Shown: piece by piece, positions 6,142 through 42,807 of the stretch
Layout: each line of letters opens with the position of its first letter
Numbering within the stretch: the stretch's first letter is position 1
Source of the DNA: a virus
DNA length: 42,807 bases
Virus record (IMG/VR): IMGVR_UViG_3300025151_000085
Span: 1 to 42,807 of that record
Reading direction: 5' to 3' (one strand)
Translations under genes and position numbers: made by a program
Notes under the pieces: model-generated
Seen by the model: only the letters and a program-made list of their open reading frames with translations
What the model was told of the DNA's origin: nothing
The model's database searches: none

Positions 6142-7961
6142 TAATCGTAAATGTAACTTGTGTCAAAGTAACCCTGCTTATCACGCGGGAAATAAACATC
6201 CAAGCCACCCTCTGGGGATTTAAAATACTGTTTTGCAAACGGTTGATCCTTGGCAGGGGTCTTCTGACGCTCTTCTGTTCTACCTAATATACGATCTAGT
6301 TGCTTAAAAACCTCTTGGTCCACGGCCCGCGCTAACTGTTTCGGGGTAGCATTTACACCCGCTTCCTTGAGCAGCTTAACACCCAGCGCGTTGTTACGGT
6401 TGTCCATCTGCATGTCTCGGATATTAGATGCGGATAAGGGTAACATATCTACTGCCTCTTTAAGCTTTGTGGCTATGCCCGTGGTCTCTGGTCCGTAGTC
6501 CTTGGCCATCAAAGCGGAAGCGAGAGCATGTGCTCGTGCATCCTCTAACTCACCGTAAGTAGGCATATCAGGCCGTGGACGACCGGTTCTCATGTACTCT
6601 GGCAAATTAAAATCAGTGGCCATCATCATCTTTTGTTTGCCAGTTTCGGGGTCCATGATCGCATAACCCTGTTCATCCTGCATCGGTATATTAGCCGGAT
6701 AGTTGTAATCTTTTACCAACTGCTCCATAAAAGTAGGGTCCTGACCATAAATGGCTTGAGCCATAGGGTCATCCATACGACCAGATGTCCGCATTGCGTT
6801 GTACTGATCTGACGGCACGTTGCCCGTAACCACGTCATACATGAAACTGCCTATGCCAGCTTCCGGTATTTCGCCGCCGTCATCAAAACCGATAGGGCTG
6901 GTTGTTACTTTGCCGTCCTCTATCTCAATCTGCTGTGGTACAAAACGACCTTCTCGACCAGCAAACGGGTCTCCAAGACTTTCTGAGTCTTGTAGATCAG
7001 AAAGATTAGCCGTACCACTTTGTAAATCTTGAACGGTTATACCGTATGCCGGATCTGCAAAATCATCATACATTTCACGAGAAACTATTTTTACATTTCC
7101 CTCATCATCAATAATCTCTCTTGTTCCCACGTCTTGACCGGCAAATGATGGAGGTATCGGGGGCAACTGAACAACTCTACCATCTACCTCAATCCTAGCG
7201 TTTGGGTCATGGGGCGTTGGTTCTAAAAGATCACTATATATCCGGTACTCTCCTGTCTCCCCCTCTTTGTATGACGGTCTGTTCATGCGAAGAAACTTTA
7301 AGAACTCTTCTAGCTCTTCCTTTGTCGCTACCGACATCGGGGACCCTTCTCCAAGTTCTACTATGCCGCCTTCTTGGTAACCTTCAACAATAGAGTCCGG
7401 AAAGCCCTTTACATACGGGTCCTGACCCTCCTTTATATAAAGTTTTTGATCACTTTCAGGGTAGTTCAAAACCGCACTAGCACGACGGTTTCTGAAAAGC
7501 TCAATCTGATCTCGTAATCTTTCTGCTTCTTCGTAATGATAACGTGCGTTGTCCACTGACCTTTGAGTGGGAAAAACATCCCCTTGCATTTCTACAGGGT
7601 TTTGAGCTTCCGACAGATGATACATCATCTGCTGCTCCAGATCTTGAAGGTAATTGTATGAACCCGTTTCCACTTCTTCTGGGGTCATAAAACGTAAATC
7701 ATCTACACCGGGAAGGGACCCGTCGTCTTGTAACTGTACGTCTCCGCCGTTTTCAAAACCTGAAAAACCAAAAAAATCTGCAAACGTCTCTCCTCTGGGG
7801 TCCTTACCACTATACAGGGTCTGACCCTTCCGGCTCTTTTTAACGATGTAAGTATCTGAGGCACGAGCTTCCGGGGCCCCTGTAAAATAATCAACAACGT
7901 CGTCAAACTTTTCGGAGATGTACTCCCCGGCAGCCCCCAAATCTACAATACTATCTGACAT
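6141..7961 (-). CDS. Large virion-module protein with DA..HA / D..NN..G domain
   Basis: A 606-residue acidic protein, mostly low in hydrophobic content and probably extended. Three short glycine-pair motifs punctuate it (ENGGDV near 73, QEGGIVEL near 198, DDGGEI near 363); the same type recurs in other virion proteins here. Near residues 482-530 is a helical region with DARAHALASAL and, about 40 residues later, DNRNNALG. This pairing resembles a phage and bacterial domain family (DUF6973-like) with no known function. It is joined to terL by TGATG and to the zincin gene by TAATG, so it is part of the packaging/portal operon. The role is unknown. Confidence 0.6.
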   Translation of the reverse strand: MSDSIVDLGAAGEYISEKFDDVVDYFTGAPEARASDTYIVKKSRKGQTLYSGKDPRGETFADFFGFSGFENGGDVQLQDDGSLPGVDDLRFMTPEEVETGSYNYLQDLEQQMMYHLSEAQNPVEMQGDVFPTQRSVDNARYHYEEAERLRDQIELFRNRRASAVLNYPESDQKLYIKEGQDPYVKGFPDSIVEGYQEGGIVELGEGSPMSVATKEELEEFLKFLRMNRPSYKEGETGEYRIYSDLLEPTPHDPNARIEVDGRVVQLPPIPPSFAGQDVGTREIIDDEGNVKIVSREMYDDFADPAYGITVQDLQSGTANLSDLQDSESLGDPFAGREGRFVPQQIEIEDGKVTTSPIGFDDGGEIPEAGIGSFMYDVVTGNVPSDQYNAMRTSGRMDDPMAQAIYGQDPTFMEQLVKDYNYPANIPMQDEQGYAIMDPETGKQKMMMATDFNLPEYMRTGRPRPDMPTYGELEDARAHALASALMAKDYGPETTGIATKLKEAVDMLPLSASNIRDMQMDNRNNALGVKLLKEAGVNATPKQLARAVDQEVFKQLDRILGRTEERQKTPAKDQPFAKQYFKSPEGGLDVYFPRDKQGYFDTSYIYD

Positions 7962-9406
7962 CAGTAATACGCCCTAACCCTTACCTCGGTGTCCTCATCG
8001 CCCCAGTCGTCCGACGGCAGTTGCACAAAATTACCCTGACGATATCTCATCAAAGCCTGTGTCATACTATCTACCAAGTCATCATATTCACCATTGGGAA
8101 ACGCGGCTACCTCTTCAATCAACTCGTCTGCAAACGCTTCGTCCGGTGCCCAGACCATGCCCGCCTCAAAAAGCGGAGATACAGAATGAACTCGCGTAAC
8201 CTTATCATTACCTTTGCTCGGCGTAAAGTTAACAACTGGTATTCCTACGTTTCTTAATTCATGCGTCAACGGTAAACCAGACGCCTTCGCCTCCACGATG
8301 ACGGTGTCGGGGTCCCAATACTTATACTGATCCAACGCTATCTCTTTCAGTTCCGGAAAATCCCAACGCCCCTTCTGGCTATCAAGAAGTATCAACGCCG
8401 GGGGTCCCCCAGCCTCTTCTGGGTGAAAAACACCCCACGTTGTAATTGCAGAAAAGTCAGAAGTTTCTCTTTTACTAAACGCCGTATCATAACTCTGTAT
8501 GACAAACTCTAAGTTGGGCACGTTCTTCTTGTCCCAACGCTTCCACCAGTCCCGCCTGATAATCGCATTCTCTTCGCCTGTCGGGTTCTGCTGATACTGC
8601 GCGTTCCATTTGCTAGGCGGGATAGATGCGCGGACCGCGGTGAGATCTTCCATAGACCAGAACTCTGGCCAACACGGCGTGTCGTCATCAAAAATGGCAG
8701 GAAGTTCTACAACTTCCCATTGGTCAGCCAAAGGATCTTTAGCCATTGCACGGAGAAGTTGACCCGTCATGTCTTTTTCGGACCACCGGGTCTGAACCAA
8801 AACTATCGACCCACCCGGCTGGAGCCTCTGCCGGGGGCCCCCTGTGTACCAATCCCACGCATCGTCAAAACCATTCGCCGACATCGCTGTCTGTTCCGAA
8901 TGCGGGTCATCAATGATTACGAGATCACCGCCGCGTCCCGCCAAGTTCGATCCCACGCCAACGGCATAGTACATACCACCAGAGGCGGTGTCCCATCGTC
9001 CTGACGCTTTACTATCAGCAGCCAGACGCACTTCCGGGAATATGTCTTTGTAATCGTCACTATCAATTAAGTTCTTCGTCTTTCTTCCAAAGTTTACTGC
9101 AAGCTCCGTGGTGTGCGTTGCTTGAATGATCTTCATTTTTGGATTCTTACCCATCATCCATGCAGGAAACAAGAACGAAGCGAACTCGGACTTCGTATGA
9201 CGCGGGGCCATATTGATGATCAAACGCTTCAACTCGCCGCTAGCTACACGCTCAAGCTTATCAGAGATAATTTTATGATGACGACCCGCGATAAACTCTG
9301 GCCACATATTTTTTACAAAGATTAAAAAGTCCGCTCGACAAGCTTCATTACGTTCAATTTGAGCTAACCGAAGACGAAGTTTCGCCTCCTGATCTGAAAC
9401 ATCCAT
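7961..9406 (-). CDS. terL: Terminase large subunit (ATPase-nuclease)
   Basis: A 481-residue DNA packaging motor. The ATPase domain has an APRHTKSE Walker A-type loop at 67-74 and an LVIIDDPH Walker B at 162-169, followed by the QTRWSEKD coupling motif near 205-212. The C-terminal RNase H-like nuclease has its acidic residues in SYDTAFS (Asp307), VIVEAKASG (Glu372) and YDDLVDS (Asp442/443). Length and motifs are complete. The ATG is preceded by TAGGGG. It is the first gene of the left operon and follows a GC-rich spacer; terS lies nearly 5 kb away, beyond a block of accessory genes, which is unusual. Confidence 0.95.
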   Translation of the reverse strand: MDVSDQEAKLRLRLAQIERNEACRADFLIFVKNMWPEFIAGRHHKIISDKLERVASGELKRLIINMAPRHTKSEFASFLFPAWMMGKNPKMKIIQATHTTELAVNFGRKTKNLIDSDDYKDIFPEVRLAADSKASGRWDTASGGMYYAVGVGSNLAGRGGDLVIIDDPHSEQTAMSANGFDDAWDWYTGGPRQRLQPGGSIVLVQTRWSEKDMTGQLLRAMAKDPLADQWEVVELPAIFDDDTPCWPEFWSMEDLTAVRASIPPSKWNAQYQQNPTGEENAIIRRDWWKRWDKKNVPNLEFVIQSYDTAFSKRETSDFSAITTWGVFHPEEAGGPPALILLDSQKGRWDFPELKEIALDQYKYWDPDTVIVEAKASGLPLTHELRNVGIPVVNFTPSKGNDKVTRVHSVSPLFEAGMVWAPDEAFADELIEEVAAFPNGEYDDLVDSMTQALMRYRQGNFVQLPSDDWGDEDTEVRVRAYY

Positions 9407-9439
9407 AGGGGGCCCCTAACTGCATAAAAGATACGCATA

Positions 9440-9468
9440 AATATGCACAATAATTAGGCAGTTAACAA
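9440..9468 (-). promoter_or_regulatory. Candidate sigma70 promoter for terL operon
   Basis: Minus-strand TTGTTA (9463-9468), a 17-base spacer and CATATT (9440-9445), in AT-rich DNA about 35 bases before the terL start. The spacing is ideal but both hexamers are imperfect. An alternative TTGTGC...TTATGC pair overlaps it. Confidence 0.35.
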
Positions 9469-9658
9469 CTCATATCATTTTTCACATAAATATTTGCGAG
9501 AAACATGGCCCTAGCTCACGCTTGCAACAGCGCGGGCCGCGGCGCGAAAATCGCGGAAAAATGGCGGTTTTCTGCGGATTTTGACCCGATAGCGCGGGGC
9601 CCCTAACCACGGGCCGCGGGCCGCGAAACACGGGCTTTTTTTCCAACGCCGGGCAAGC

Positions 9659-13932: not shown

Positions 13933-14394
13933 TTATGTGGGACAAATCAAGTCAAAAATTACATCCCAATTAAATTTGCCTTTCTGGTGGTGTATCGGCT
14001 CGACGGATTGTAAGCCGTCCATTTTCAAATCAACCGCCGCGCTGGCGGGATACAAAAACATTTCCGGATCATCTGTCGGCTTGTTCTGTTTCTTAATCAA
14101 TATCCATGACGGGCTATGCTGGTGACGGGATAGCCACGCCACTTGTGACGGCTGTAAAGTAACGCCATTGCTTGTCAAAAATTTAAGTTCTACAAAATGA
14201 AACACACCCTGTTCATCGCATATCAATAAATCAGGTATGCCCGCGCCTACATAGTTTTCAATCCGCGTCAGCAGAAACTTCCGCTTCGACCTCTGCGCCG
14301 CTTCCTTTATCTGCTTGTAAAAGCCGCTTTCTCGCTTTGTTGCGATTGCTGGGGTTTTCATCTTCCGGCGTGATGTTGATTGTGACTGGGGCAT
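13933..14394 (-). CDS. PD-(D/E)XK nuclease (VRR-NUC / resolvase-like)
   Basis: A 153-residue protein. The catalytic core is visible as GAGIPD (Asp55), a beta strand, then FHFVELK (Glu69, Lys71), followed by LQPSQVAWLSRH, the order of small VRR-NUC or Holliday-resolvase-type nucleases. Upstream helix residues (RESGFYKQIKEAAQ) fit the start of the fold. It could trim or resolve replication intermediates before packaging, which would suit its place beside terS. Its start overlaps the terS coding region by 137 bases in another frame; a later ATG at 14361 (MKTPAIATK) is an alternative start that would shorten the overlap. Confidence 0.8.
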   Translation of the reverse strand: MPQSQSTSRRKMKTPAIATKRESGFYKQIKEAAQRSKRKFLLTRIENYVGAGIPDLLICDEQGVFHFVELKFLTSNGVTLQPSQVAWLSRHQHSPSWILIKKQNKPTDDPEMFLYPASAAVDLKMDGLQSVEPIHHQKGKFNWDVIFDLICPT

Positions 14395-14887
14395 AGCTTT
14401 GCTTGAGTTCCTCTAGGGCTTTCAAAACATCCTCTTTACTCATACTGTCGATAGAGCCATGACGGATTTCTGATTTGTTGACGTATATGTCCCCCTGCGC
14501 TTGTCCCCGTCTGTACTCAGCTTGCACGGCGGCACTATATGCGCCGTTCTGCAAAGCCAAATCCCGTATGTTCTGCAAATCCCTAACGTGCCGGTGAAAT
14601 GTGATGCCGTACTTTTCATCAAGTTCCCGCCGATAAGACTGTATAGCCGCCACGACATGAGGCGATATATGCGGGTTGGTCAGTTCATAAGCCCTGCTAT
14701 GTGCAGACGTTACAGCATATCCAGCATTGATAGCCGCCTCGCGTAACGTAATCTGCCCGTCTTTACTCACCAGTTCTTTTACAAAGAGTTCCTGTTTACG
14801 GGTCAGGGGCTGGTCTACGCCAGCCGGTGGTCTGCCTCGACGTTCTCTAGGTTTACCGGTTATCTTACCCGCCGCTATTCTTGCCAT
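14258..14887 (-). CDS. terS: Terminase small subunit
   Basis: A 209-residue protein that recognises phage DNA and starts packaging with TerL. An N-terminal basic arm contains RRGRPP, an AT-hook-like core. A helix-turn-helix region follows (LTRKQELFVKELV ... REAAINAGY, about 28-57), then a long helical oligomerisation region and the block GQAQGDIYVNKSEIRHGSIDSM (about 130-150), which is typical of the phage TerS type that pairs with this kind of TerL. The C-terminus is basic then acidic. The ATG is preceded by ACGGGG. It lies about 4.9 kb from terL with many small genes between them. Confidence 0.85.
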   Translation of the reverse strand: MARIAAGKITGKPRERRGRPPAGVDQPLTRKQELFVKELVSKDGQITLREAAINAGYAVTSAHSRAYELTNPHISPHVVAAIQSYRRELDEKYGITFHRHVRDLQNIRDLALQNGAYSAAVQAEYRRGQAQGDIYVNKSEIRHGSIDSMSKEDVLKALEELKQSYAPVTINITPEDENPSNRNKARKRLLQADKGSGAEVEAEVSADAD

Positions 14888-15204: not shown

Positions 15205-15579
15205 CTATTGTTCTTGTTGATGTTTCAACCATTGCTGGTTGGATCTATCAAAGTAACGCAACCATGTTTCGATAAACTCAAGGTGTGTACACCTCTCATC
15301 TTTTGACGGTTTGATGCTATTTTTACCAACTTCAAAGAAGCCGACCGGCACCATTTTATCTGCGCTTTCGGAAGCGTAGGACAAGCCGCCCATGTCATTT
15401 ACATGGCTGGTTTCGTCGGGCCCGTACCAAACGGAAACAAAATTTTTCTCTCCTCTGGCCGCTTTGCGGGCCGCGGTCACCGGATCGGTGGCCTTGGCCC
15501 ATGAGCCGTAAAATCCAGCGGTTGAAGCGATATAAGTGAAGCCGTTGGGCAACACCCAGTCTTTTGCACAATCAGTCAT
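15205..15579 (-). CDS. Hypothetical protein under its own promoter and structured leader
   Basis: A 124-residue protein. It has a Gly/Tyr-rich first half (YIASTAGFYGSWAKATDP), a charged AARKAARGEKNF stretch and a block VWYGPDETSHVNDMGGLSY ... PVGFFEVGKNSI, followed by a Trp-rich helical tail. I do not recognise the family. It is strongly set up for expression: a near-consensus promoter, a long structured leader, a CTCCCGTAA-type (minus TTACGGGAG) ribosome-binding element and a terminator. That makes it a good candidate for an early or constitutively expressed gene. Confidence 0.7.
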   Translation of the reverse strand: MTDCAKDWVLPNGFTYIASTAGFYGSWAKATDPVTAARKAARGEKNFVSVWYGPDETSHVNDMGGLSYASESADKMVPVGFFEVGKNSIKPSKDERCTHLEFIETWLRYFDRSNQQWLKHQQEQ

Positions 15580-15585
15580 ACTGAC

Positions 15586-15594
15586 CTCCCGTAA
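15586..15594 (-). promoter_or_regulatory. TTACGGGAG leader / ribosome-binding element
   Basis: Minus-strand TTAATTATTACGGGAGGTC, with GGGAGG about 6 bases before the ATG at 15579. It is the 3' end of the structured leader. Confidence 0.75.
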
Positions 15595-15613
15595 TAATTA
15601 ACGATTTCAAATA

Positions 15614-15720
15614 GCGGGTGGACGAGGCGGCTACTGGAACCGTGGTTCCCAGTCGGCACTGAGGCCGTAGAGTCGCTAGGGTGTCTTCACCACCCCGCCC
15701 ACACAATCATTTCTGATTGT
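15614..15720 (-). promoter_or_regulatory. Structured 5' leader RNA (candidate cis-regulatory RNA)
   Basis: Read on the minus strand from the predicted start of transcription. First, a perfect 7-bp hairpin with a GAAA tetraloop (15714-15720 with 15703-15709). Then a roughly 85-base fold closed by pairing of 15690-15698 with 15614-15621 (one bulge), containing a 9-bp helix with a single bulged G (15644-15653 with 15633-15641) and a smaller CGGC/GCCG hairpin. It ends about 20 bases before the TTACGGGAG element. The layout resembles a riboswitch or other leader-type regulator; no known class recognised. The helix arms also pair on the opposite strand, so direction is inferred from the promoter. 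Confidence 0.6.
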
Positions 15721-15726
15721 TCTTAT

Positions 15727-15755
15727 ACTATAGCATACTATCCCATATTTGTCAA
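15727..15755 (-). promoter_or_regulatory. Strong sigma70-type promoter with TATGGGA in the spacer
   Basis: Minus-strand TTGACA (15750-15755), 17-base spacer, TATAGT (15727-15732). Predicted transcription start is about 15720, the first base of the leader hairpin. A TATGGGA box (15741-15747) lies within the spacer, so a protein binding there would block or alter transcription. Confidence 0.8.
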
Positions 15756-15806
15756 GCATAAATTTTTAAAAGTTTTGTGTGTCGTTAACCAATTTTAAGT
15801 TAACAT

Positions 15807-15832
15807 CCCATAATCGCCCATAGAAGCCCATA
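15807..15832 (-). promoter_or_regulatory. Three TATGGG boxes at exact 10-bp spacing
   Basis: CCCATA on the plus strand (TATGGG on the minus) at 15807-15812, 15817-15822 and 15827-15832. One-helical-turn phasing puts the boxes on the same DNA face, as in multi-site operators. The same box is paired at 10 bp near 10440 and 16436. Confidence 0.65.
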
Positions 15833-15958
15833 CACGGGCTTTAGGTGTTTTCCGGTGGTTTACTACCCTCGACCGGCCAACGGCGTTTTTGGCTTCCAGC
15901 CTTGGTTACAGACCGGTATATGTGAAAACGCTTAAAATCTCTCTGGGCCCAGAACATC

Positions 15959-15975
15959 TGCGACATAGTGTCGCA
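15959..15975. promoter_or_regulatory. TGCGACA-TAG-TGTCGCA inverted repeat
   Basis: Perfect 7-bp arms (15959-15965 and 15969-15975) with a 3-base centre, a typical size for a dimeric regulator site. No regulator can be paired with it from the sequence. Confidence 0.5.
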
Positions 15976-16044
15976 CCCCTCTATACGGGTATGGGATTTT
16001 ATGATAGACTCTCATACAAGGCTAAAAAGATATTTTAGTCTTTA

Positions 16045-16064
16045 GATGTTTCACGTGAAACATC
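16045..16064. promoter_or_regulatory. parS: parS centromere site (ParB-binding palindrome)
   Basis: gatgtttcacgtgaaacatc is a perfect 20-bp palindrome whose inner 16 bases (TGTTTCACGTGAAACA, 16047-16062) are identical to the near-universal bacterial chromosomal parS consensus, bound by ParB/Spo0J. A chance match to one given 16-mer in 42.8 kb is about 1 in 100,000. No parA or parB gene is visible in the window. The site lies in the control region, 39 bases before the ATG of a plus-strand gene. A frame starting MFHVKH runs through it, but that is the usual accidental translation of parS. Confidence 0.9.
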
Positions 16065-16086
16065 CGCTGTTTAAAATCGTTAACTA

Positions 16087-16095
16087 CTACGGGAG
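16087..16095 (+). promoter_or_regulatory. CTACGGGAG leader / ribosome-binding element
   Basis: Plus-strand TTAACTACTACGGGAGTATTG with GGGAG about 7 bases before the ATG at 16103. This is the same element as on the minus-strand genes, now on the other strand, and it fixes the start codon. Confidence 0.8.
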
Positions 16096-16102
16096 TATTG
16101 TT

Positions 16103-16324
16103 ATGCCTTCAATCGTTGAAGTTCCTGAAGAGCAGGCTAAAGTTGGAGTAATTTGGATCTGTCTTAATTCGGTGGATTTTACTGGGAACGACGAGGCTGT
16201 AAAAGAGCATCGCCGTTTGCTTCTGTCATATCGTAAGAAGATTGCGAAGATCAACGACATTGAGCTTTCGCAGGTTGAAAGCGAAATGCTGGATCATTAC
16301 GAAGAGCTTAAAAAAGCCTGTTAA
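16103..16324 (+). CDS. 73-residue hypothetical protein downstream of parS
   Basis: Start chosen at the ATG at 16103 because of the CTACGGGAG element; a longer frame from 16046 begins inside parS. The protein is small and helical: a short hydrophobic strand (VGVIWICLNSV) followed by two charged helices (AVKEHRRLLLSYRKKIAKI and a Glu-rich C-terminal helix). No family recognised. It is one of only three plus-strand genes and the nearest gene to parS, so an accessory role in maintenance or control is possible but unsupported. A hairpin follows. Confidence 0.65.
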   Translation: MPSIVEVPEEQAKVGVIWICLNSVDFTGNDEAVKEHRRLLLSYRKKIAKINDIELSQVESEMLDHYEELKKAC

Positions 16325-16343
16325 AAAACCAAAGTAAAAATTA

Positions 16344-16367
16344 GGGCGGCCATGTGCCGCCCTTCTT
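16344..16367 (+). terminator. Hairpin after the 16103 gene
   Basis: A perfect 7-bp stem GGGCGGC/GCCGCCC (16344-16350 with 16356-16362), 5-base loop, followed by TTCTT. The T tract is short, so it may be a weak terminator. Confidence 0.55.
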
Positions 16368-16393
16368 GACAATATAGTGTCAATTTATTGACA
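16366..16393. promoter_or_regulatory. TTGACA/TGTCAA inverted repeat plus third TTGACA
   Basis: TTGACA (16366-16371) and TGTCAA (16378-16383) form a dyad with 6-base centre; another TTGACA follows at 16388-16393. The 17 bases 16366-16382 match the minus-strand sequence 18296-18280 with two differences; there they overlap a -35 box. This suggests a shared operator. Confidence 0.5.
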
Positions 16394-16430
16394 AACTTTT
16401 TTATGCCCGTCACGTCTTTAATAAGAACTA

Positions 16431-16446
16431 ATGGGTTATAATGGGA
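16431..16446 (+). promoter_or_regulatory. TATAAT -10 between two 10-bp-phased ATGGG boxes
   Basis: ATGGGT (16431-16436), TATAAT (16437-16442) and ATGGGA (16441-16446). The two ATGGG cores are exactly 10 bases apart. A perfect -10 box lies about 33 bases before the ATG at 16475; the -35 region (GTCTTT) is poor, suggesting activated or regulated transcription. Confidence 0.6.
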
Positions 16447-16474
16447 CATGAAGTTAGTCAAGAAAGGTAAAGCC

Positions 16475-16885
16475 ATGCTTAAAATTGAACAAGAACAGTA
16501 TTACAAAATTCCTGAAAATGAAGATGCTTTTTTAGAAGAGGATTCTCGTTACATCAGGAAATTTTTTGCTAACGTCGCGCAACAGGCTAATGCAATGCCC
16601 GACCAAGTTGACGACCCAAAGTACAAAAAAGCCTATCATAGGTTTATAGAGAACAAGTTTTTGTTGGACGACCTAGACTTGTTACAAGATAGAGTTTCTT
16701 CCGGCTTGCACGATCAATGTGTACAAACAGAAAAAACATTAGAGTCTATGAAAGGTATGACGGAGCCTGCTGGTCTTATTGGAAACCCTAGCGTTGTTAA
16801 AGAAGCGTTAGAGGAAGTTATAAAGAATATTTGCGAACAACGATCTACGTTGAACAAAATGTTTGCTTGGATAAAAACTGCTTAA
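16475..16885 (+). CDS. Helical hypothetical protein
   Basis: A 136-residue protein. I choose the ATG at 16475, which has AAGAAAGG upstream and lies downstream of the TATAAT box; the earlier ATG at 16448 would sit at the predicted transcription start. The sequence is almost entirely helical and charged, with a DSRYIRKFFANVAQQ helix and a C-terminal EEVIKNICEQRSTLNKMF helix. No family recognised. It ends 5 bases before a strong bidirectional terminator. Confidence 0.7.
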   Translation: MLKIEQEQYYKIPENEDAFLEEDSRYIRKFFANVAQQANAMPDQVDDPKYKKAYHRFIENKFLLDDLDLLQDRVSSGLHDQCVQTEKTLESMKGMTEPAGLIGNPSVVKEALEEVIKNICEQRSTLNKMFAWIKTA

Positions 16886-16890
16886 ACAGA

Positions 16891-16924
16891 AAAACCCCCA
16901 GCCGCAAAGCTGGGGGTTTTTTTT
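16891..16924. terminator. Bidirectional intrinsic terminator between convergent genes
   Basis: Stem 16891-16902 with 16909-16920 (GC core CCCCCAGC/GCTGGGGG plus A-T flank), 6-base loop; runs of T on both strands. It serves the plus-strand 16475 gene and the minus-strand operon from 18236. The minus gene's TAA lies at its edge. Confidence 0.9.
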
Positions 16925-18402: not shown

Positions 18403-18699
18403 TCAAGAGAAATCGTCACCATGAATTAATTCTTCCAGTTCTTCATCGGTCATGTTCTCAAAGTCCATGTCCTCAAAGCGTTTTTTCTTCTTCACTGGGT
18501 AACGCTTTACAGTCACCTTATTTAATTTCTTAATAGGATCACCCATGATGTCGTCCAGTTTGACCACTTTAGTTTCTAAAGTTTCTATGGTGGAATACTT
18601 ATGACCACACGTTAAACACTGCCGGTGACGGCGTGTGGTATCTCCAAGCGGCCTACTGTTATAGACCTTACTCTTTCCCTGACACTTCGGGCATATCAT
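18403..18699 (-). CDS. NrdR-like zinc-ribbon protein lacking the ATP-cone
   Basis: A 98-residue protein. The N-terminal 40 residues match the NrdR zinc ribbon: MICPKC (Cys3, Cys6), YNSRPLGDTTRRHRQC (Cys28) LTC (Cys31) GHKYSTIE. In NrdR this ribbon binds boxes upstream of ribonucleotide reductase genes, and an ATP-cone domain follows. Here the cone is missing and is replaced by a Lys-rich stretch (KRYPVKKKKRF) and a very acidic tail. It may bind DNA without nucleotide sensing, perhaps at host NrdR boxes; this is inference. No nrd genes are in the window. ATG is preceded by AGGGAG. Confidence 0.75.
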   Translation of the reverse strand: MICPKCQGKSKVYNSRPLGDTTRRHRQCLTCGHKYSTIETLETKVVKLDDIMGDPIKKLNKVTVKRYPVKKKKRFEDMDFENMTDEELEELIHGDDFS

Positions 18700-29162: not shown

Positions 29163-32100
29163 CCCATCAGGCTCCCGATACCCTCTATCAGGGAGCGGTC
29201 TTCTGGGAACATAGCAGCAAACCTACGTCTATCCACCGGTCCGCTGGCCGGAGGTGGAGCTTGAACTTGTGGCGCTGCCGACGCAAGGGTGGTCGTGGGT
29301 TGTGCCACCGTTTGCGCCGGAACTGTTTGTGTTGTGGGCATAGCTGTTGGTGCGACGGAGCTTACCGGACCCACTGTTGGCTCCTCTTCCTCTATGTAAG
29401 AAGGAGGAGTGACTGTTAAATCTTCTTGTAATTGCTCAGAGACGGCTCTTTCAACATAAGGGGCTCTTCTCCCCATTTGTTCAAAACCAAATCCAACTAA
29501 GATATTTTGTATTTTAGAGGCTGCTCCAGAGGCTTGAGCATCTGTCTGTGCTTGCTGTAATAAAACACCTAACTTCCTACGATCTTTAAGTATTTCACCC
29601 ATCACGCGGATACGGGCTGCTTCGGGTACTTTAAAAAACAAATTTATCATTTGTTTAGAACCTTCATTAGCCGCAACAAATCCGCCGCCTATACCGCTTC
29701 CTCCGCCTACAAATTTTTTCAACAAGTTATCAAAAGCTTGTTGTGAACGAGCACCTATTGTTGCACCTATCATTCGGGCTTGAAACATCTTCATCCCACT
29801 AGGTTTATCAAAAAGAACATTTTGAACATCTCCAGACATAAAGGCTTCTTCTACGTTTACCATTTCTTTTAAAGCCTGTTGTATCTGACCTAAATGTTCT
29901 TTATCAATTAAATCGTTTTCTAAAAGCCAAGAAGAAACCCGTAAGCCTGATTTCGGATCTGCCCCTTTAACGGTTCCAAACAAAGCGTCTTGCATCGCTT
30001 TTGGGTTAAAGGCGTAACCGGTTCCACCCGCCCTAGTTAAAGCCCAATCTAAAATAGCTGTTCTAAGTCCGTCTTTAACTTGTTGTTTGCTATATTCAAC
30101 CCCATCTTTGCCTACAACAGCTTCTGCTCTGTTAGCTAAATCTAAAAGTTCGTTAAGACTAGCGGCAGGTTTTTTTGAACGTAAAGCCGAGGCAACTGCG
30201 CTTGACGGGTTTTCTGTATTAGATTCCAAAACAGATTGAAAAGCTTTTGTTTCAGGCGAAACTTTTAAAGCTTTTAGTTCTTCACCCAAACTATCAAACA
30301 TCCGTTGTGCAGAGGAGGCGTCTTCTAAATCTAGTTTAAGCTGCGGGAACATCCTAAAAATAGCCTGTCCTTCCGCAGACTCAACATAGTCTTGTAATTT
30401 TTTAGGATTTACTACAAGAGCTTCTTTAGTTTTTTCCACTCCCGTTTCCGGGTCGATGTACTTTACAGGTTTGCGGTCCATAATGCGAGACATCTGGTCA
30501 CGGGTGATTTCTTCTAATGTTTCATGTATTGTAAACACCCGATTAACCGCAGAGGCTGGCATATTTCCTTGCGTGGCTACAAACTTACCCGCACTCATTA
30601 TATCTTGTAGACGAAGATAAGTGGCGTTGCTCCCACCTCCAAAAATTTTGTCTACTAAAGCTTCAGCAGAAATTCTCGGTCCGCCTTTTTGCGTCGTATC
30701 TTGCAGATCACCCAAGAAACTTCTAGTAAATACATCATTACGGGCCTTAGTATAAGCCCTTGCCATATTATACGCATCGCCAAAGTTATCTTGGGTAAAC
30801 AACAGATCATCTAAAACCGCTCCAGCCAATCTTTCCATCTTCATGGCCGTTTGATTTTTGCCTTGATTACGGAAATATGTAGCTTTTTCTAAAAGTTGAG
30901 AGCGAATATCATAGAGACGGGATGCCGTAACAGGGTTTTCTAGAGGAACATCAGGAACTATTGGTTCCCCAGCCTCATCTAAGGTTGGTCTGAAAAATTG
31001 AATAAAGTCATCAATATCTTGTTTTAGGCCGCCTAATGCTTTTGCTGTTTCAGACTCCCCACCTTTAGATGCTGATTTCACTCCGCCTTGGTCTAAGGGA
31101 GTGTCTAACATTAAAAGAAAATTAGGCTCCGTTAGTTCCTCTCCTGATCTGTTATAAAAAGTATTTATAGGAGCATCGCCTACAGCATTCCATAAAGTGC
31201 GTTCAACCTCTTTAGTTGCGCTCAACTGCTGGTCAAAAAGAGTTCTTAATTTAACAGCTAGATCTAATTTAAAAGAAGGGTTTTGCCGAAAAGGAGTGAT
31301 GGTTCTACCTCTTCCTGTAACTTTTTCAGCGGCCTTAGTGATATTACTAATCTGAATATCTAAACTATTTGCAATGGTGTCATGGAAGAGGCGTTCTGCA
31401 ACGAAAGCTGCACCCTGCATTGCCGCTACATCACCACTGTCTAAAGCGGAAATAATTGACTGCTTTGCACCCTGTATGTAAGCCTCTCTTCCTTTCACAC
31501 TAGCTATTGCTAATTCATCGCTGGTGCGCCCTAAAGACTGTTCAATTCTAGCCCAAACTCTCGCAAGTTCAGGCTGACCTTTAGCTGCAAAAAACGCCGA
31601 AACAGAAACATCTGTAATTGGTCTCCCGTCAGCACCAACAAGTTCCTCTCCTAAAATGCGAATAGCCATGTCAATTAGTTCAGGATTTTGCTGAACCTCA
31701 TTACTATCCTTTAAAGCGAGAAAAAATTTTCCTGCACCACTCTTACTTAATTTTTCATCTAACTTAGCTTTTTTATCTCCACTAAGAGCGCCTACGACAG
31801 AGTCAAAACCATATCGAACAGCTTTCGCCCCTCCTGTTAAAATAGGTTTTAACAACAAAGGCGGTAATCCGGCTCCCCCGATTTCTCCTAGAAACCTATA
31901 GCCCGGACTTCCGGGAAAAATTGTTTCGGCTCCAAAAGATCCAACACTAGAACCCCCTACCGCTAAAGTCTCATAGAACAAAGTAGCGTAAGGACTATTA
32001 CGTGCTGTTTTACCACTTGCAGCTATACCGCTCTCTAAACCCCCTAAAATACGAAGAGATAGAGGCCCCTTTCTAGGGTCAGGTTTTAAAAGCCTGCTTA

Positions 32101-41916: not shown

Positions 41917-42807
41917 CTATCTGGCATTAGAAAATTTAAAGGGCTGTTTAGCAAAAGCAATGTAAATATATTCAGTTCCGCTTGTATTTATGTAAGCACT
42001 TGCGTTTCGCACTTTAAACCCGTTAGACAAAAAATCCATTGTATCTGTAGCACCAGCCGCCTGTGCATCATTCGGTATTAAGTATTCTCTAACAACGTTA
42101 TCAATATCTCGTTTATTATCGTACGTTGACCAGTTATTTGAACCAGTGACTGATTTCAATAAAACGAAAACTGGTCTGAATCCTGTGTAAATATATGTTC
42201 CAGTTGCGCTTCCATTTCCCGTGTATGAGCCAACGGAAGAGTAACCTTCTACACTATGAAAGCAGTAGGCAATAATATTTTTAGTATTTTGGTTAGTAGC
42301 ATGATCTGTATCAACTGCAAAAACATTATCATTATGCGTCCCAAAAGACGCAGCACTACTATTTTGTCCATTTGCTAAATGTAGATAAAGAACATGATCT
42401 GTTGCTACATCTTGATTCCAAACAGTCCAAAGCGACCCATCAGTGTCTATGTCTTTGACAAGTATGATTTCGGGTTGTTTTGTTAAACCATGAGGAATTG
42501 TTCCTGATGATCCTGTGCCAACATATTGCACTATTGAAAACCCTGCCGTAGTGTTTGCTGAAAGTCTTTTAATAGCTATAGATGGAGAGCCAGAAAATGC
42601 ACCACTTTGATTAGAACCATTTATTTTAGCTGAACCTGCTGTTGGCTCTGCACTATTTGAGGCAGAATTATCTCCGCTAGGTGCGCCACCCGCCAGCCAG
42701 TTCCAAGCCACAAACGTGCCTGAAGACTCATTTACATTAGAACTACTGCCTAATGTAAAACCATCAGCACCAAAAGCGTTCAAATAGGTAGTAACAGTTT
42801 GTTGCCC
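41917..42807 (-). CDS. Tail fibre / receptor-binding protein, DUF7483-like (5' end cut)
   Basis: The frame stays open to the right edge, so the N-terminus is missing; a TTG at 42783 is not a likely start. The visible 296 residues contain, in order, FGADGFTLG, FVAWNWLAGG, IPHGLTKQPEIILVK, YCFHSVEGYSSVGSYTGNG, YTGFRPVFVLLK, DFLSNGFKVR and YIYIAFAKQPFKFSNAR. This set marks a C-terminal fibre domain very common in marine phages (DUF7483 type). It is likely to be part of the host-binding fibre. Confidence 0.85.
   Translation of the reverse strand, partial: GQQTVTTYLNAFGADGFTLGSSSNVNESSGTFVAWNWLAGGAPSGDNSASNSAEPTAGSAKINGSNQSGAFSGSPSIAIKRLSANTTAGFSIVQYVGTGSSGTIPHGLTKQPEIILVKDIDTDGSLWTVWNQDVATDHVLYLHLANGQNSSAASFGTHNDNVFAVDTDHATNQNTKNIIAYCFHSVEGYSSVGSYTGNGSATGTYIYTGFRPVFVLLKSVTGSNNWSTYDNKRDIDNVVREYLIPNDAQAAGATDTMDFLSNGFKVRNASAYINTSGTEYIYIAFAKQPFKFSNAR

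Follow-up and report, generated by a model that had tools for sequence, protein, structure and literature searches.

The DNA analysed here, referred to as the window, is the complete 42,807 nt (42.8 kb) of an IMG/VR virus record. At 16047–16062 it contains a perfect copy of parS, the site of the ParB–parS system that serves as the near-universal centromere of bacteria. The features of this locus and of the terminase genes are as follows.

7961–9406, minus strand: terminase large subunit, TerL (phrog_38, Terminase_6C)
9407–9511, minus strand: canonical terminase-upstream block, GGGCCATGTTT ... TTGTTA-17-CATATT ... ATG, without parS
14258–14887, minus strand: terminase small subunit, TerS (Terminase_2, phrog_51)
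15205–15579, minus strand: hypothetical protein of 124 aa, the first leftward gene ahead of TerS
15727–15755, minus strand: strong sigma70-like promoter by consensus match only, TTGACA-17-TATAGT, 11/12, TG-extended
15785–15912, no strand assigned: conserved non-coding stretch, 84% identical in L126 and L257
15989–16043, plus strand: upstream element with the inverted repeat GGCTAAAA...TTTTAGTC, 96% identical in L234
16044–16868, no strand assigned: two-gene rightward cassette starting with parS, delimited by alignment to L234 and L122
16045–16064: perfect 20-bp palindrome GATGTTTCACGTGAAACATC enclosing the parS core (exact match)
16047–16062, no strand assigned: parS core TGTTTCACGTGAAACA (exact match)
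16103–16324, plus strand: first cassette gene, 73 aa, with parS in its probable leader
16448–16885, plus strand: second cassette gene, 145 aa
about 16891–16924, 3′ of the 145-aa gene: G+C-rich hairpin followed by a T run, read from the sequence

The core agrees with the bacterial chromosomal consensus TGTTNCACGTGNAACA at all 16 bases and shares its perfect palindrome, exactly as the first-pass annotation had it. It differs from the chromosomal site in setting, since it lies in a phage, far from parAB or oriC, and heads phage transcription units. A scan of all 42,807 nt found this single perfect parS, and the second-best match, at 30248, has three mismatches. Shuffled windows contained on average 0.27 matches with up to three mismatches, and two or more such matches occurred in 0 of 100 shuffles. 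The exact 16-mer is expected by chance about 42,807/4^16 = 1e-5 times per window, in agreement with the earlier estimate. Together with the control palindromes described below, the shuffles rule out chance or base composition as the cause of the site. The site had also been called non-coding, which is probable but needs qualification, as an ATG-initiated frame (16046–16324) runs across parS and would be read as MFHVKH... The likelier start is the ATG at 16103, and because this codon is preceded by a GGGAG ribosome-binding site, parS is probably part of the 5′ leader.

TerL is 6.6 kb away from the site and TerS 1.16 kb, and the site marks the junction of a cassette missing from the nearest relatives. 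In L234, 55 bp at 96% identity to the window end at base 16043, the cassette is replaced by ~310 bp with a 97-aa ORF, so that a small gene of another kind, without parS, comes after the upstream element, and homology resumes at 16869. L122, which is ~90% identical nearby, shows a clean absence of 15899–16876. Misassembled host chromosome, which the first-pass annotation had named among the circumstances that would undo its reading, is ruled out by this phage homology on both cassette flanks. Neither the 73-aa nor the 145-aa product has a Pfam or PHROG match. Homologues of the 73-aa gene are found in L126, L257 (47% identity) and L064 (39%), and in L126 and L064 they have parS upstream, which is the same cassette-type place as in the window.

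The strong sigma70-like promoter match at 15727–15755 is directed towards the 124-aa ORF and TerS. The conserved stretch at 15785–15912 is a possible RNA or regulatory element, and an Rfam scan of the window, including this stretch, gave no match. A repeated leader, CCGCTGTTTAAAATCGTTAACTACTACGGGAG, occurs in the window at 16061–16095 and in reverse at 15580–15615, as well as in L122 (16397–16431), L234 (2711–2741) and L255 (680–714). It precedes several small genes of the lineage and is probably a promoter/ribosome-binding unit that they share, with the gene cassettes behind it being swapped.

Phage identity and gene content

TerL of the window is 62% identical to that of phage 023Pt_psg01, 60% to that of Pelagibacter phage HTVC027P, 57% to that of phage DSL-LC04 and 55% to that of HTVC023P, and its DNA polymerase A (PolA) is 49–57% identical to the PolA proteins of the same phages. 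Membership of the HTVC023P type is defined by a PolA at least 45% similar to that of HTVC023P or HTVC027P (PMC9599517). The window phage is assigned to this type by that criterion because its PolA is ~49% identical to both over the full length. Megablast of the first 25 kb of the window against 50,697 phage records gave no match. Profile searches of the window identified the terminase subunits, the DNA polymerase, an AEP-type primase and UvrD- and SNF2-type helicases. A small protein encoded at 18403–18699, by one of several small genes clustered next to the DNA polymerase gene, has an NrdR-like N-terminal zinc ribbon (PF22811).

No ParB_N (PF02195), HTH_ParB (PF17762) or ParA-type AAA_31 (PF13614) domain was found in the window by profile search, which bears out the earlier statement that it encodes no ParA or ParB, and no tyrosine integrase (PF00589) was found in the window or in the relatives searched. 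Control genomes gave matches in the ParB, ParA and integrase searches. Phage-plasmids of the P1 and N15 type encode their own ParA and ParB. The window shares with them a centromere-like site on phage DNA but has no ParA or ParB of its own, and with respect to the tyrosine-type enzyme it also lacks the integrase of a temperate integrating phage. It has instead what characterizes an SGI1-like hijacker, a foreign parS without the cognate ParAB. Any match to ParB_N was seen in only 5 of 50 parS-lineage or parS-bearing records, and was above cut-off in 3. Profile searches rule out a phage-encoded ParB in the window and in nearly all of its relatives. The exception is a 45-kb relative without parS (G028, the L176/L233 record), in which a ParB_N domain at 41950–42144 lies within a 1056-aa ORF that is perhaps a polyvalent protein.

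Three contigs from metagenome-assembled genomes (MAGs) carry this TerL (L312, L313 and L314). Two are binned as Verrucomicrobia and one as Maricaulis, a conflict that may hold a clue to the host or may reflect binning error or MAG contamination.

Distribution and history of the site

Relatives of the window phage were gathered by polymerase and by TerL, blind to parS. Their records are fragments, and those with the conserved block described below are related by descent and hence not independent. Among the 77 TerL relatives with at least 150 bp of upstream sequence, 53 have a perfect parS no more than 200 bp ahead of TerL, most often at a distance of 100–104 or 144 bp. In a further 8 the site lies ~1,050 bp upstream of TerL and ~100 bp upstream of TerS, which directly precedes TerL, giving a perfect parS at the head of the terminase operon in 61 of the 77; the phages that keep the site there are mostly marine. 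Across 83 TerL relatives, TerL-upstream DNA (15.3 kb in all) holds 54 sites and the remaining 814 kb hold 9; of these 9, 8 are ~100 bp upstream of TerS and 1 lies elsewhere. Exactly one parS is present in each of the 10 relatives of the TerL set that are at least 30 kb long. The 0.80 Mb of polymerase relatives contain 12 copies of TGTTNCACGTGNAACA, where 300 shuffled palindromes scored 0.0067 hits on average. These counts strongly support the view that parS is kept in the lineage beyond chance and is maintained by selection.

Whether related phages keep the site at the same place, which the first-pass annotation had made a test of its claim, has a divided answer. Above-chance conservation at homologous loci holds for the lineage, at the head of the terminase operon, whereas conservation of the exact position in the window is rejected for the nearest relatives, L122 and L234, which lack the segment. 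HTVC027P and HTVC023P, both relatives of the window phage by PolA and TerL, have respectively a one-mismatch parS near TerS and no convincing match.

The usual terminase-upstream block reads GGGCCATGTTT – ~32 bp – parS – ~30 bp – TTGTTA – 17 bp – CATATT – ~33 bp – ATG, and the identical type of block stands ahead of TerL or TerS, whichever terminase gene is first. In 20 non-redundant parS-bearing blocks 16 of 16 parS bases are invariant and the flanks are variable. The distance between parS and the promoter-like TTGTTA-17-CATATT element is 29–31 bp in 19 of these blocks and 6 bp in the remaining one (L307), a conservation that is partly inherited since the rows with the block are related. In another clade (L139, L141, L152, L157 and L218) parS lies 18–60 bp ahead of TerL. 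In L139 it is between the promoter-like element and TerL, with the element on its other side, and L139 and L152 have tandem TGTTTCAC/TGTTCCAC pairs, both forms of which fit the parS pattern. More diverged members carry the site elsewhere, in some cases kilobases away. Because this other clade and the diverged members have parS at other places, its presence is steadier than its position.

The window's own terminase block is canonical apart from the missing site. Throughout the window clade (TerL at least 94% identical: L234, L236 and L238–L242) the block is intact minus parS and the stem that follows it. Because the TerL tree nests this clade among parS-bearing clades, the simplest reading, by parsimony, is that the clade lost parS from the terminase block. 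This loss, the absence of the cassette site from L234 and L122 and the cassette-type place of parS in L126 and L064 indicate that parS, which is standard in the lineage, is present in the window as a copy that was either moved or re-acquired.

Across IMG/VR, the parS 16-mer is present in at least 120 stretches, whereas three control palindromes matched in composition gave 10, 5 and 7 contigs. Among the first 120 parS stretches listed, 34 belong to the window's lineage; others are unrelated. A distant phage family (TerL ~27% identical, phrog_38) has up to five perfect parS around the TerL start (L017, 2657–3444; L044, 10535–11462; L053, 240–961; also L075 and L098), and these arrays look more like centromere clusters than single operators. 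Some unrelated phages carry 5–12 copies. Twelve lie within ~5 kb, at ~8.9–13.9 kb of the locus, in L087 (the 116.7-kb record G111), in which a ParB_N search gave no match. In many unrelated viral contigs (L005, L007, L054, L112, L096 and others) parS falls inside reading frames, read as NVSRET/DVSRETP or MFHVKH. In bacteria, TGTTNCACGTGNAACA was found in 106 of 142 Alphaproteobacteria genomes, mostly in one to four copies and often no more than ~2 kb apart.

Probable recruitment of host ParB and its possible uses

Because the parS is genuine, parAB is absent and relatives keep the site beyond chance, recruitment of host ParB, as originally suggested for this site, is its best reading. We consider it highly probable that the site is a genuine loading site for host ParB, in a phage whose searches turned up no partition or tyrosine integrase genes, and that selection keeps it in the lineage; the phages of this lineage very probably use host ParB during infection. 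The closest precedents appear to be the stolen parS sites of SGI1 and the use of Spo0J by phi29. The two stolen sites of SGI1 hijack the ParABS system of the IncC plasmid and raise the stability of SGI1; one of them, located 25 bp ahead of a promoter-borne AcaCD-binding motif, affects replication control (PMC10954446). The likeness is that of a mobile element carrying the parS of another replicon without its own ParAB for it, although SGI1 relies on plasmid ParB and two sites whereas the window lineage consists of lytic-looking phages with a single site of chromosomal type. The virulent Bacillus phage phi29 makes use of its host's Spo0J/ParB (Meijer et al. 2005, cited by PMC9437464); the sporulation setting and the Gram-positive host are points of difference, and the likeness lies in the described use of host ParB. 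The suggestion that use of host parS by a phage is little described must be tempered by this precedent. It stands in so far as no report of parS in HTVC023P-type or other lytic marine phages was found in the open-licence literature, an absence of little weight, and parS is not mentioned in the main text of the description of HTVC023P-type pelagiphages (PMC9599517).

From the sequence comparisons we infer ParB binding and sliding, a direction of control and a purpose. Host ParB-CTP dimers would clamp at the phage parS and slide onto flanking phage DNA, where they would govern the adjacent transcription unit, usually the terminase operon and, in the window, the two-gene cassette. Probably this unit would be held down by ParB while phage copies are few, and replication would then titrate the limited ParB and release it. 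We tentatively favour such ParB-dependent control over partition or positioning and over titration as a decoy, with a confidence short of even, because in nearly all members the one parS heads a transcription unit and because the site has a fixed place beside a promoter-like element, at the near-constant spacing given above. Control of this kind would have a parallel in VirB of Shigella, a ParB-type CTP clamp that acts from virS, a parS-like palindrome upstream of promoters, to alter transcription (PMC10770331), although VirB is a dedicated ParB-like regulator and anti-silencer whereas the window lineage would use host ParB. The geometry is not universal, since the place of parS differs in the other clade, between the element and TerL, and in the diverged members, and the site is missing from L234, L122, HTVC023P, 023Pt_psg01 and DSL-LC04, which also speaks against this reading. 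To our knowledge, intergenic phage DNA nearly always heads a transcription unit, and for this reason placement at the head of a unit is by itself weak evidence for regulation.

The same observations bear on the other uses to which a recruited ParB might be put. With host ParB on its parS, the phage genome could be moved, tethered or segregated by ParA and perhaps SMC, as might happen when infection of a slow-growing marine host is delayed or enters a carrier state. This is possible, if somewhat unlikely. A single perfect site per genome, no phage parAB or integrase, and a position that moves while presence persists are what such hitch-hiking would lead one to expect, and in P. aeruginosa a single parS close to oriC is enough (PMC4368675). 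The stability that SGI1 gains from its stolen sites (PMC10954446) and the involvement of Spo0J in the entrapment of the phi29 genome in spores (cited in PMC9437464) point the same way. Hitch-hiking gives no reason to expect so strong a linkage to the terminase operon or its promoter, however, and the searches for a tyrosine integrase and a ParA-type gene gave no hint of lysogeny or of a plasmid state. That linkage, to the first terminase gene whether TerL or TerS, together with the sites around the TerL start in the distant family, would suit a role at the genome end, in which ParB marks or shields the region where packaging starts or helps to condense DNA there. We regard this as improbable, as the promoter-like element suffices to explain the place of the block and the window site is separated from TerL and TerS by the distances given above.

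Slightly less probable still is a decoy, by which replicating phage DNA would titrate host ParB and disturb segregation of the host chromosome. In the SGI1 system, additional parS copies do make the IncC plasmid less stable (PMC10954446), and the multiple sites of some unrelated phages could be seen in this light, but a decoy should favour several copies and the lineage has one per genome, at a fixed place beside a promoter. Least probable of all is that the 16-bp palindrome is coincidence or serves a regulator different from ParB, of the phage or of the host, as its operator. Operators are often palindromic, and parS does lie in promoter regions; however, all 16 bases are those of the bacterial centromere, the variant TGTTCCAC form is also present, no HTH_ParB-like regulator above cut-off was found in 22 records, and the control palindromes are rare.

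In a widespread lineage that has exactly one parS per genome, mostly beside the terminase promoter, and no phage ParAB, host ParB would be a routine participant in infection, and parS theft would extend from genomic islands to virulent viruses. A more specific form of the favoured control is that this large, abundant lytic marine lineage uses ParB as a genome-copy sensor, with clamps loaded at the single parS keeping the terminase or cassette unit off until ParB is titrated by phage replication. We think this version unlikely as it stands; if true, DNA packaging would be coupled to replication, and a host-borne late switch could be revealed. The near-relative with the one-mismatch site, HTVC027P, is public and cultured, on Pelagibacter HTCC1062.
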